Assembly: GCA_013373175.1 (NCBI GenBank)
Contig: JABXII010000009.1
Span: 1 to 64,000, forward strand
DNA length: 64,000 bases
Reading direction: 5' to 3'
DNA from: Campylobacteraceae bacterium
Lineage (GTDB): Bacteria > Campylobacterota > Campylobacteria > Campylobacterales > Arcobacteraceae
Shown: piece after piece, positions 24,850-28,987 of the stretch
Position numbering within the stretch: position 1 is the stretch's first letter
How the letters are laid out: the number at the start of each line of letters is the position of its first letter
Translations under genes and position numbers: made by a program
Notes under the pieces: model-generated
Told to the model about the DNA's origin: nothing
Database searches by the model: none
Seen by the model: the letters and a program-made list of their open reading frames with translations, nothing else

Positions 24850-26418
24850 TTGAAAATCTTTAATTACAGACTCGTTATATTTATATTAAGTATAATTTTT
24901 GGAGTTGTATTCTCTGTACCATCTTTTTTACAAACAGAATCTGGTAAAAAAATCTCACTAGGACTTGATTTACAAGGTGGGTTACATATGCTTCTTGGTG
25001 TTCAAACTAACGAAGCAGTTACTTCAAAAATAAAATCAACAGCTACAGCAGTTAAATACTTCGCAAATGATGAAGATATTTTAATTGATGGCTTAAGTAT
25101 CAAAGACAATGACAGAATTGTTTTTACAGTATTAGACCAAGATGAGTTACCAAAAGTTGACAAAATGCTTGAACAAATTAGTGGTTTACAAATCACTAAA
25201 AATGACCTTGATTACTCTTTAACTTTAACACCTGCTGAAGAGGTTAAAACTAAAGACCAAGCAGTTTCTCAAGCAGTTGAAACTATTAGAAACAGGCTTG
25301 ACCAATTTGGTCTTGCAGAACCAAATGTTGTAAGACAAGGTGAAACTGATATTGTTGTTCAACTTCCAGGTATTAAAACAGCTGCTGAAGAAAAAGCTGC
25401 AAGAGAACTTATCTCTAAACCAGCTAACTTAGAGCTTATGGCTGTTGATGAAGAAAGAGCTGACCAAGTTTATACTATGTCAAAAGCTCAAGCAGCACAA
25501 TATGGTGATATCATTTTAGAAGCTACAGATAACCCTGGGGTTAAGTATCTTGTAAAAGAGATTCCTATTTTAAATGGTTCTCAAGTAGTTGATGCACAAG
25601 TTGCTTTTGACCAATCTAATCAACCAATTATTAACTTTACACTAAATAGTGCAGGTGCTAGAATCTTTGGAGACTTCACTGCTAAAAATGTAGGGAAAAG
25701 ACTTGCAGTTGTATTAGATGGTAAAGTTTACTCTGCACCAAATATTAGAGAAAGAATTGGTGGAGGAAGCGGTCAGATTTCTGGTGGCTTCACTGTTATA
25801 GAAGCAGGAAATGTTGCAATTGCTTTAAGGTCAGGTGCACTGCCAGCTTCTGTTAAGCTACTTGAAAAAAGAAGTGTAGGACCAAGTTTAGGTGCAGATT
25901 CTATTAAAGCTTCAACTATAGCACTTGTTTCTGGTTTCTTAATTGTATTTATCTTCATGATTGTTTATTATAGACGAGCAGGAGTTATTGCAAATGTTGC
26001 ACTTGTTACAAATATTTTTATTATCATCTCTGTTATGGCAATGTTTGGAGCAACATTAACACTTCCAGGTATGGCAGGTATTGTATTAACAGTTGGTATG
26101 GCAGTTGATGCAAACGTTATTATTACTGAAAGAATTAGAGAACTTCTAAGACAAGGTGTATCTATACCAAAAGCAGTTGAAGATGGTTATTCAAATGCAA
26201 TGAGAGCAATTCTAGATGCAAATATTACAACACTACTTGTTGCTGTAATTTTATATGCATATGGAACAGGACCAATTAAAGGTTTTGCAGTAACAATCTC
26301 TATTGGTATTTTAGCTTCAATGTTAACGGCAATTTTAGGAACTCATGGTATTTATGAAGCATTATTATCAAAAATTGCAAAAGACAAAAACTTAAATAAA
26401 TGGTTTGGGATTAAATAA
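24850..26418 (+). CDS. secD: Protein translocase subunit SecD
   Basis: A 522-residue inner-membrane protein of the RND-like SecDF family that uses the proton gradient to assist late steps of Sec export. It has TM1 near the N-terminus, the LGLDLQGGLHMLL motif (about 36-48), a large periplasmic P1 region, and five clustered TM helices at about 350-510 containing GMAVDANVIITERIRELL. The start is TTG at 24850, with AAGGGA about 6 nt upstream. The stop overlaps the secF start by 1 nt. Confidence 0.95.
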   Translation: MKIFNYRLVIFILSIIFGVVFSVPSFLQTESGKKISLGLDLQGGLHMLLGVQTNEAVTSKIKSTATAVKYFANDEDILIDGLSIKDNDRIVFTVLDQDELPKVDKMLEQISGLQITKNDLDYSLTLTPAEEVKTKDQAVSQAVETIRNRLDQFGLAEPNVVRQGETDIVVQLPGIKTAAEEKAARELISKPANLELMAVDEERADQVYTMSKAQAAQYGDIILEATDNPGVKYLVKEIPILNGSQVVDAQVAFDQSNQPIINFTLNSAGARIFGDFTAKNVGKRLAVVLDGKVYSAPNIRERIGGGSGQISGGFTVIEAGNVAIALRSGALPASVKLLEKRSVGPSLGADSIKASTIALVSGFLIVFIFMIVYYRRAGVIANVALVTNIFIIISVMAMFGATLTLPGMAGIVLTVGMAVDANVIITERIRELLRQGVSIPKAVEDGYSNAMRAILDANITTLLVAVILYAYGTGPIKGFAVTISIGILASMLTAILGTHGIYEALLSKIAKDKNLNKWFGIK

Positions 26419-27386
26419 TGGAAATTTTTAAAGGTACAAAAGTTCATGACTTTATGGGTAAAAGAGTCCCATTTTTAAGTTTATCGGCTGTTTTAGTTAT
26501 TGTTTCACTTGTGCTACTTTTTACAAGAGGGTTAAATCTTGGTATTGATTTTGCAGGTGGTACTTTAGTTCAAGTTCAATATGAGCACAAAGCGCCAATT
26601 GATAAAATCAGAACTGTATTAAATGCAACAGATTACAAAGGTTCTTCTATTACAAAATTTGGTAGTGAAGAAGAAGTAGTTATTAGAATCTCAGGAGTAT
26701 CATCTAACTTAACAAATGATATTGGTGATGAGATGCATAAGATACTTGATTCAACTGGTAAATTCCAAATCAGAAGAGTTGATATGGTTGGACCAAAGGT
26801 TGGTGGAGAACTTAGAGAAAAAGGTATTATGGCCTTATCTTTATCACTTATTGTGATACTTATTTATGTATCATATAGATTTGAGTGGAGATTTGCCATT
26901 GCTTCTATTTTAGCCTTAGCACATGATGTTATTATTGCTCTTGGAGCTATTTCATTAGTTGGGGTTGAAGTTAACCTTGATATTCTTGCTGCAATTCTTA
27001 CAATCCTTGGGTATTCGCTAAATGATACGATTATTGTATTTGATAGGATTAGAGAAGGTGTTCAAACTTCTAAAGAAGCAGTTCTTGACAATGTAGTTAA
27101 TACTTCTGTTTCAAGAACATTATCAAGAACAACTCTTACTTCATTAACAACATTCTTTGTTGTTGCAACTTTATATTTCTTTGGTGGAGAGATTATTAAT
27201 GGATTTGCATTTACATTACTTGTAGGTGTGATTGTTGGTACTTATTCATCTATCTTTATTGCTGCTTCATTCTTAGTACAGCTTAAATTCTCTATTGAGA
27301 GTTTTAGAGCTAAAGAGGCTGAGAAGGTTAAGAGGCAAAAAGAAAAAGAAAAGCTACGTGCGATGTATGAAAAAGGAACTGTGTAA
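26418..27386 (+). CDS. secF: Protein translocase subunit SecF
   Basis: A 322-residue partner of SecD with six TM helices. LGIDFAGGTLVQVQ (about 43-56) and LGYSLNDTIIVFDRIREGV (about 198-216) are the family motifs. Translation is coupled to secD through TAATG. The last coding bases form the left arm of the operon terminator. Confidence 0.95.
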   Translation: MEIFKGTKVHDFMGKRVPFLSLSAVLVIVSLVLLFTRGLNLGIDFAGGTLVQVQYEHKAPIDKIRTVLNATDYKGSSITKFGSEEEVVIRISGVSSNLTNDIGDEMHKILDSTGKFQIRRVDMVGPKVGGELREKGIMALSLSLIVILIYVSYRFEWRFAIASILALAHDVIIALGAISLVGVEVNLDILAAILTILGYSLNDTIIVFDRIREGVQTSKEAVLDNVVNTSVSRTLSRTTLTSLTTFFVVATLYFFGGEIINGFAFTLLVGVIVGTYSSIFIAASFLVQLKFSIESFRAKEAEKVKRQKEKEKLRAMYEKGTV

Positions 27387-27410
27387 ACTGTTATAAAACA
27401 GTTCCTTTTT
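27371..27410 (+). terminator. Terminator overlapping the end of secF
   Basis: A 12-bp perfect stem (27371-27382 with 27398-27409) ends in a T run. The left arm lies inside the last secF codons and the stop codon is in the loop. Confidence 0.75.
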
Positions 27411-27430
27411 CAATAACTCTACGTCATATA

Positions 27431-27480
27431 ATAAAATTTAGTCGGTCATTTACTACAGTAAACTCCCTTCTAAATTTTAT
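27431..27480. repeat. Inverted repeat with nested palindrome
   Basis: ATAAAATTTAG (27431-27441) pairs perfectly with CTAAATTTTAT (27470-27480). Inside the 28-nt loop is a second palindrome, TTTACT-AC-AGTAAA (27449-27462). Together with the large hairpin that follows, it fills the 383-nt non-coding gap after secF. Confidence 0.6.
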
Positions 27481-27542
27481 TTTCTTCCTTGATTTCTTAA
27501 AAAAACTTCAATTTTCTAACAGTTTACAGACCATTTCAAAAG

Positions 27543-27677
27543 GTATCGATTTATATTTTTAGGGCAAAAATTTTATGAATAAAAAGCGTTAAAAAATTGT
27601 AACTGTTTGAGACGAAGTCGAGTTTTACAATTTTAGCTTTGCGTGAATAAAATTCCTAAAAATCTAACTTTCGATAC
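27543..27677. repeat. 135-nt imperfect palindrome (MITE-like element or structured RNA)
   Basis: Four stem blocks pair in order: GTATCGA (27543-27549) with TCGATAC (27671-27677); TTTTTAGG (27556-27563) with CCTAAAAA (27655-27662); AATTTTAT (27569-27576) with ATAAAATT (27647-27654); AAAATTGTAA (27593-27602) with TTACAATTTT (27625-27634). The apical loop has a small GAC-GAA-GTC hairpin (27611-27619). No ORF is present. The size and symmetry suggest either a non-autonomous repeat or a conserved structured transcript; I cannot tell which from one copy. Confidence 0.6.
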
Positions 27678-27769
27678 GATTTTTTGTTTTACTTTTTATA
27701 AAAAAAGTAATAAAAGACTCCAAAGGGCAATTACAATATAATAAATCTAATAATTTATTTAGGAATAAG

Positions 27770-28987
27770 ATGTCAGAGAAGAAAATAAATAAATGTAAAA
27801 TAGAAGATTGTGGCAGAGATATTGATGAAAAAGAATATTTGTTAACAAAAGATGAAAATAGATGTATTCTCCATTGTAATAAAAGTGACTCTTTTTCTAT
27901 AGAAATAAATAGTTTATTTATAGATGAACTTAATAAACTTATGGATTATCAAATTAGAGATAATATTGATCAACAAAAAGAAATAGAACAAGATGAAACT
28001 TTTACTTTTAATGTTCCTTGGGGTTTAGATTTTTATAATATTCATTTTCCAATAATGAAGATTGCTTTATTCTTTTTTGATAATATGCGAAAGTATGACC
28101 TTTATTTTGAAAATTGCGTATTTTGTGAAGAACAAAAAAAAGTTATGTATGATTTTAAAAATAGAATAAATTTTATAAATTGCATATTTAAAGAAAATGT
28201 AGATTTTTCAAATTCAACGTTTAGCAAAAATATAAGTTTTGAAAAATCAACTTTTGAAAAGAAGTTAATACTAGAAGAGACAACTTTTGATGGGAATGTT
28301 AATTTTAAAGAAGTAATATTTAAAGAAAAAGTAAAAATTGATTCAACTTATTTCAATGGTAATAGCAATTTTATATATTTAAATAAAAACTATAAAAAAG
28401 AAGTATTAGTAGAAAATCGTGAAACCGCAAGAATTATAAAAGACTCTTTTGAACAACAAAACAACATAATTGAAGCAAATAAATTTTATGCATTAGAAAT
28501 GAAAGAAAGAGAAAAAGAACTTAATTGGAAAAAAGATTTTTTTGATTGGATAGTTTTCAAAGCACATGGACTTGCTTCAAATCACTCACAAAACTGGCTT
28601 CTTCCTATCTTTTGGATTATATTTTTAGGGCTATTAAATTCATACTTTCAACCATTAGATTTTTATACCATGAATCATTCTGATATTTTATATAAAGAAA
28701 TTTTTATAGGACTATTAATTTCTTTAACAACTTTTGTTTTTTTATTATCCCTTATTGAACATAAAATCTATTATAATTATATATCAAGCTTTTTTATCAT
28801 ATTACTTGTTTATTTGATATTTACTAATGATATTTATTTTAGTGATTTTGCAAATTCTGTTAATCCTTTCTCAATTATGACAAAAGGTGAAGAACTTTCT
28901 TTTGGAACATTAATTTATAAAATCATAATAGCCTATTTAATCTACCAACTAATCATTTCAATCCGTCAAAACACAAGACGAAAATAA
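27770..28987 (+). CDS. Pentapeptide-repeat membrane protein with N-terminal Cys motif
   Basis: A 405-residue protein of unknown function. Residues 9-14 and about 35-40 hold two Cys pairs (C-X4-C and C-X3-C) that could bind zinc. Residues about 125-205 form a Phe-rich pentapeptide-type repeat (FINCIFKENVDF, SNSTFSKNISF, EKSTFEKKLIL, EETTFDGNVNF), about six turns of a right-handed beta helix. A helical linker leads to about four C-terminal TM helices (about 280-400). The RBS AGGAAT precedes the ATG. The membrane part is clearly related to the next gene. Codon use is very AT-rich like its surroundings. Role unknown; a membrane sensor or channel is possible but unsupported. Confidence 0.65.
   Translation: MSEKKINKCKIEDCGRDIDEKEYLLTKDENRCILHCNKSDSFSIEINSLFIDELNKLMDYQIRDNIDQQKEIEQDETFTFNVPWGLDFYNIHFPIMKIALFFFDNMRKYDLYFENCVFCEEQKKVMYDFKNRINFINCIFKENVDFSNSTFSKNISFEKSTFEKKLILEETTFDGNVNFKEVIFKEKVKIDSTYFNGNSNFIYLNKNYKKEVLVENRETARIIKDSFEQQNNIIEANKFYALEMKEREKELNWKKDFFDWIVFKAHGLASNHSQNWLLPIFWIIFLGLLNSYFQPLDFYTMNHSDILYKEIFIGLLISLTTFVFLLSLIEHKIYYNYISSFFIILLVYLIFTNDIYFSDFANSVNPFSIMTKGEELSFGTLIYKIIIAYLIYQLIISIRQNTRRK

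Follow-up and report, generated by a model that had tools for sequence, protein, structure and literature searches.

Two adjacent palindromic repeats behind secF in a Campylobacteraceae genome, one of them resembling ERIC elements

ERIC elements are among the best-known bacterial repeats, and ERIC-PCR is in use for typing Arcobacter. ERIC (IRU, RU-1) elements are imperfect palindromes of ∼117-120 nt, intergenic, multi-copy and often behind genes, with a core (A)GTCAYTTAC-N-GTAARCTCC and the flanks CTGCGTT and GCCTT. They are reported to carry 7-bp terminal inverted repeats (TIRs) with TA at the termini (PMC2229807), are given as found in Enterobacteriaceae and Vibrionaceae (2024 review, PMC10969869) and are reported from E. 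coli, Y. pestis and V. cholerae (PMC2267715). Copies that lie at the 3' end of a Yersinia gene are reported to alter transcript levels via an RNase E site (PMC2229807, PMC10969869), and a further study gives the ERIC primer sites as absent from two A. butzleri genomes (PMC3566208). Other comparable systems are MITEs, which are small, palindromic and dispersed, and the REP/BIME elements with their RAYT, among them the GTAG-/CGTC-tagged REPs, which are conserved intergenic hairpins in many phyla (PMC3733652; its main text lacks the terms Arcobacter, Sulfurimonas, Desulf and Flavobacterium).

The window analysed here is a stretch of 64,000 nucleotides in which secF (26418-27386) and the next ORF (start 27770) enclose a gap of 383 nt (27387-27769). 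A sequence-only reading had described this gap as ORF-free and as a single structured element, either a folded RNA or a small non-autonomous repeat. The lack of ORFs was borne out for ORFs of at least 80 aa, the lower size limit of the listing. The first inverted repeat that had been described (AATAAAATTTAG at 27430-27441 against CTAAATTTTATT at 27470-27481), the palindrome nested in it (TTTACT-AC-AGTAAA) and the 135-nt palindrome with its stem blocks and GAC-GAA-GTC tip (27611-27619) are all present. They do not form one element: the gap holds two unrelated elements of two families, unit 1 and unit 2, standing side by side. With the gap as DNA query against 16 genomes of the genus, the two halves return different loci (query 19-130 the unit 1 set, query 195-327 the unit 2 set), and short matches to query 290-332 and 343-381 make up further sets. 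In three relatives (G003, G009 and G010) the entire gap can be aligned behind secF. The features are as follows.

26418..27386, plus strand: secF, the upstream gene (ORF; Pfam SecD_SecF_C, 2e-67)
27368-27382 / 27398-27412, unstranded: 15-bp perfect inverted repeat, terminator-like (inverted-repeat listing)
27398..27516, minus strand: unit 1, putative ERIC-type element (model R2, which includes the window copy: 27398-27512 minus, 90.8 bits; alignments A1, A4, A5)
27444..27466, plus strand: putative ERIC core of unit 1, GGTCATTTACTACAGTAAACTCC (compared with E. coli ERIC AGTCACTTACTTATGTAAGCTCC)
27542..27678, plus strand: unit 2, type A, a nested imperfect palindrome with covarying stem blocks (alignment A2, pair counts)
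27577..27646, plus strand: unit 2 core common to other phyla (model R3, which includes the window copy, 75.4 bits)
27601..27626, plus strand: unit 2 tip AACTGTTTGAG-ACGAAGT-CGAGTTTT, with a conserved internal loop enclosing an apex stem that varies
27684-27697 / 27702-27715, unstranded: second hairpin, T/A-rich (inverted-repeat listing)

The 15-bp inverted repeat spans the end of secF, finishes in CTTTTTC and runs into unit 1. T/A-rich hairpins like that at 27684..27715 come after many unit 2 copies, as judged by eye among the matches listed. The gene 3' of the palindromes (27770-28987) has a Pfam match to Pentapeptide_3; in sister species (L036, L037, L038, L045) different proteins occupy this place behind a similar leader, which by eye makes it a variable slot.

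The two units are probably old, non-autonomous palindromic repeats that derive from mobile elements, are now immobile and serve as 3'-end hairpins exchanged by recombination. Their symmetry is pronounced. In a palindrome scan of the whole window, genes and gaps alike (10,640 centres, one per 6 nt, with centres within 60 nt merged; mean of all centres 17.3, sd 5.0), centre 27452 ranks first (score 55) and centre 27608 sixth (44). The claim that, of the gaps, only this one shows such symmetry is not supported by the scan, other centres of the window being as strong (60224, 45986, 1688 and 40586, with scores of 45-53). Folded as DNA, the whole gap has a z of −3.6, with 0/100 dinucleotide shuffles equally good; positions 27520-27690 have a z of −2.4 as RNA (3/200 shuffles equally good) and −2.2 as DNA (5/200).

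The likeness of the unit 1 core to ERIC was first noticed when copies were aligned, and tested afterwards. The unit 1 family has the central core AGTCACTTAC-N-GTAAGCTCC with asymmetric edges that is a hallmark of ERIC. A search of 397 genomes from the phylum for the core pattern gave 52 places, spread over 20 genomes, and none in a reversed control; at 51 of these places the letters on either side of TTAC/GTAA form a matching Y-R pair. L040, a copy that was located by secF synteny alone, has 23 positions in common with the 25-nt core of E. coli; the window copy has only 18 and L042, which has a longer loop, 15, the range for ten shuffles of a single 4-kb locus being 14-16. The two ERIC flank motifs, which were not selection criteria, co-occur in 17 of 30 copies (some orthologous, hence not all independent), whereas 500 shuffles average 0.04 such copies and never exceed 2; these shuffles, like those used below for the unit 2 arms, preserve base composition only.

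A minus-strand model (R2) of 39 Campylobacterota copies was run against 60 loci (404 kb) at E up to 10 and returned exactly two matches, namely both E. coli ERIC loci at full length. One scored 32.0 bits (E 0.01) and the other 30.4 bits (E 0.022), the E-values being rough, with positions 1-115 over E. coli 214-330. The match to the core is partly circular, because 29 of the 39 rows had been picked by a pattern taken from that core. An earlier plus-strand model (R1), built without the core pattern, gave E. coli ERIC 15.2 and 13.4 bits, which is not significant. Outside the core, resemblance to ERIC is supported by the flank motifs and the R2 alignment, while the R1 bits stand against it. To judge from these alignments, unit 1 belongs to the ERIC superfamily, although it lies in another phylum, is A/T-rich, has strongly diverged arms and is present in few copies per genome. 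R2 finds 7 unit 1 copies in the genome of the window (three of them model rows) and 2-21 per genome in all 16 genomes of the genus, with a copy beside secF in 11 of the 16. In the relatives the copy beside secF has changed letters and kept its pairing, as in TTACT..AGTAA versus GTACT..AGTAC. Double changes were seen in 2 of 5 pairs in one count and 9 of 12 in another, in alignments that are cut ∼46 nt from the core, short of the element ends.

Full-text searches found no literature on ERIC elements in Campylobacterota genomes, which is to say that none was found and not that none is in print. If relatives of ERIC stand behind conserved genes of another phylum, ERIC would have a far greater age than assumed, or would pass between phyla more readily. 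Diverged copies in the phylum would also fit both facts in the dispute over ERIC-PCR in Arcobacter, provided that A. butzleri carries them too.

Unit 2 appears from its aligned copies to be a second dispersed family, apart from ERIC, whose arms drift with their pairing kept while the tip (AACTGTTTGAG-stem-CGAGTTTT) is fixed. The tip, whose conserved internal loop is CTGTTTGA/GAGTTT, is the most conserved part. Of 104 family genomes, 29 contain the pattern ACTGTTTGAG-N(2-30)-CGAGTTTT, at 44 places in all, against two in a reversed control. At least three arm types exist: A is that of the window, B that of L003 in the same genome, and C is found for example in L081, L082 and L099. The type A alignment has 12 copies, of which four are secF orthologues, and in 21 of its 43 pairs both sides have changed with pairing kept; shuffles yield 8.9 ± 1.9 pairs, none of 500 as many as observed, and slid controls yield at most 6. 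In 17 type B copies the corresponding count, made without a shuffle control, is 19 of 39. By the model of the unit 2 core (R3), 11 of the 16 genus genomes contain copies, 20 in total and two of them in the genome of the window; this model may miss long-tipped copies of type C. The tips of L069, L072 and L075 have a GGAGG-N-ACG stretch inserted in the apex. Neither a paper with the unit 2 tip nor a name for the family was found, with the same limit as above. A literature search by six motif strings gave, among the matches listed, only CTGTTTGAGCG, and none of these was on a bacterial repeat by title.

Both halves of the gap have scattered copies, so that the repeat-element option of the sequence-only reading holds. 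Its proposed check for compensatory changes also gave a positive answer in both units, and the fold is therefore conserved, either as RNA or as DNA. A serious if somewhat doubtful possibility is that the two folds are structured, cis-acting 3'-UTR elements selected as RNA, for termination, mRNA decay or protein binding, and that their dispersal is incidental. The pairing maintained by double changes is consistent with this, and so is the placement of unit 1. In the AGTCA..CTCC orientation, 35 of 38 scored copies stand behind a same-strand gene, 30 of these 35 with the core 40-70 nt past the stop codon, a narrow distance. Forty Campylobacterota loci were given for this count, L020 and L035 (the window's own copy) falling outside the pattern, together with two E. 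coli loci at which no ORF was called; many places are orthologous, so the counts are not independent. In E. coli, ERIC lies behind ybhI on the same strand at L065 and is oriented opposite to fbaA and pgk at L067. Reading of the proteins suggests that the genes upstream of unit 1 include htpG, nrdB, guaB, dxs, uvrB, ilvC, fusA, efp, fabI, purH and ribD, apparently housekeeping genes, with the Pfam check made for the SecF of the window only. Orthologous placement extends across genera, by the same reading, for guaB, nrdB and htpG among others, and what we take to be guaB bears unit 1 in G000 (the genome of the window), G047 and G085.

The strands divide the evidence on selection as RNA. One strand of unit 1 does fold better (mean z −6.0 versus −4.0, in 34 of 40 rows), but it is the minus strand, antisense to the gene ahead; in the window copy the strands are about equal (−4.5 plus, −4.7 minus). 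Unit 2 type A folds equally on both strands (−5.1 and −5.2), and in type B the sense strand is slightly better in 12 of 17. Inverted-repeat correction in DNA can likewise yield double changes. Rfam offers no match: at gathering level there were none in the window and none at an element in 8 further loci, and on the gap at E up to 10 there were 11, all sub-threshold and mostly to microRNA and snoRNA models. An argument on the RNA strand of unit 2 from G-U versus A-C counts seemed strong at first sight and was dropped, because it involved few columns, used a fold that had been picked for that strand and drew no support from the type A z-scores. By placement, 27 of 35 scored unit 2 copies stand behind a same-strand gene (39 loci given, with L073, L080, L107 and L117 dropped, and two places counted twice, L085/L031 and L088/L115).

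Behind secF the two units have different relationships. Unit 2 is shared between G000 and G003 (97%) and unit 1 is not (76%); between G003 and G010, unit 1 is shared (99%) and unit 2 is not (69%). G000 is 98% identical to G010 in the right flank and 93% at the secF end, versus 87% in each case for G003, and the SecF proteins agree with the flanks, that of G000 being closer to G010 (97%) than to G003 (93%). In another genus, G079 and G082 agree at the secF end (97%) and in unit 2 (98%), and only to 74% in unit 1. Type A unit 2 stands behind secF in both genera and is therefore probably the older state here. A second mosaic site has type B in G000 (L003) and type C in G010 (L099 about 2200-2400, G010:C2). 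Homologous recombination between relatives would be the simplest account of this mosaic. As a separate observation, comparison of L106 (G009:C6) with L119 (G010:C2) reveals a unit 2 copy plus an ORF, GIY-YIG-like by eye, that interrupt an intrinsic terminator which is intact in G010.

The derivation from mobile elements that we favour can be put as a sequence of steps. Both units would have arrived as transposase-dependent miniature elements. They would by now be immobile here, since their positions are common to different genera, and relatives would exchange them by homologous recombination. They may act as long hairpins at transcript 3' ends that influence the ending or decay of the mRNA, as ERIC does in Yersinia, and an effect of this kind on secF mRNA is, with modest confidence, their most likely role. 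For both units, multiple copies, pairing kept through double changes and a preference for the 3' side of a same-strand gene are directly observed. Against the favoured reading, no transposase was identified for either family, and secF has a terminator-like hairpin of its own.

Unit 2 offers signs of movement in two other lineages. Its tip pattern occurs in at least 119 stretches of named genomes, the carriers among the matches listed including Desulfobacterales, Campylobacterales, Flavobacterium, Elizabethkingia, Lachnospiraceae, Leptotrichia and Burkholderiales. In 82 of 109 matches listed with 45 nt on both sides, the arms flanking the tip are more complementary than all 20 shuffles, and 104 of 114 distinct tip matches listed have an apex stem of at least 2 bp, against ∼31 expected (the closing G-C, fixed by the pattern, is counted). 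Most tip matches are therefore not due to chance; L236, L249, L252 and L257 are examples that apparently are. Elements of 235-243 nt with the tip at their centre and terminal repeats like GTAACTATTCAGCC occur in the MAG S015_14 and in its relative S015_20; three of five have direct duplications of 8-9 bp. On contigs mostly labelled Desulfobacterales or Deltaproteobacteria, elements are bounded by repeats like TGATGGTTTCGTAAAAAGTC, and duplications of 4 bp, in one case 5 bp, accompany 6 of 10, of which three have the exact tip. The terminal-repeat motifs and duplications were read by eye. Since the same tip lies in elements with different terminal repeats, different TIR types enclose one core. 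Unit 2 cores thus occur elsewhere inside MITE-like elements with TIRs and target duplications, but, unlike in MITEs, the TIR types around the one core differ and no common TIR could be defined for the Campylobacterota copies. Among the latter no clean empty site with a target duplication was found, the best candidate (L106) carrying a gene too. A search for literature on a MITE with Desulfobacter found none. Two plasmid records match the gap, and a Sulfurovum mangrovi plasmid has a 78% identical unit 2 copy between two convergent genes; the plasmid search gave no match with a unit 1 copy and a phage search with unit 2 none, while 7 stretches matched in a search of viral contigs.

It is very unlikely that the units are REP-like elements whose hairpin tip is recognised by a Y1 (HUH, RAYT) transposase that moves them. 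A sequence-conserved tip on variable arms would resemble a hairpin recognised as single-stranded DNA. However, the Y1 domain PF01797 has no match in the genome of the window, G003 or G010, and it is present in 11 of the 29 genomes with the unit 2 pattern versus 36 of 104 overall. The target duplications of the TIR-bounded copies elsewhere point to DDE-type movement. Although conserved intergenic hairpins in many phyla are shared with REP/BIME, the units here are much longer, have no GTAG/CGTC tag as far as reading of the sequences goes and have no RAYT association. One family genome (G057) has 17 Y1 transposase matches, several of them equal in score.

That the units are elaborate transcription terminators of secF with no mobile history is most unlikely. 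Intrinsic terminators share with them a stem and T-run behind the stop codon, but the units belong to families that are dispersed and conserve a core or an internal loop, and their scattered copies lie behind unrelated genes and in other phyla. A terminator scan that permitted loops of 3-8 finds no site in 27250-27900, though this loop limit shuts out long palindromes and puts the hairpin at 27368..27412, with its loop of 15, beyond reach. Integron attC-like sites, which are likewise imperfect palindromes behind genes with structure conserved over sequence, and which the joint absence from G010 of the G009 unit 2 copy and its adjacent ORF would suit, can be set aside as extremely improbable, because attC sites have a variable tip and conserved simple sites, unlike unit 2 with its most conserved part at the tip.

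The spread of unit 2 over several phyla raises a testable question, namely which protein or process holds the tip constant. A speculative answer, which we consider unlikely, is that the variable apex stem over the CTGTTTGA/GAGTTT loop is one pan-bacterial module, placed in unrelated miniature elements of Campylobacterota, Desulfobacterota, Bacteroidota and Firmicutes because it is recognised, as RNA or single-stranded DNA, by a widely conserved host factor or by the fold itself. A second case would then be ERIC, with its conserved mismatch edges, and both would be palindromes kept at gene ends across phyla for a shared function rather than as transposition junk. Two further stretches (L258 236-389 and L194 1313-1491) have the Desulfobacterales-type terminal repeats and 4-bp duplications without the tip, and one contig with a unit 2 core also has a lysine riboswitch (L185 1189-1371; Rfam RF00168, 84.9 bits).
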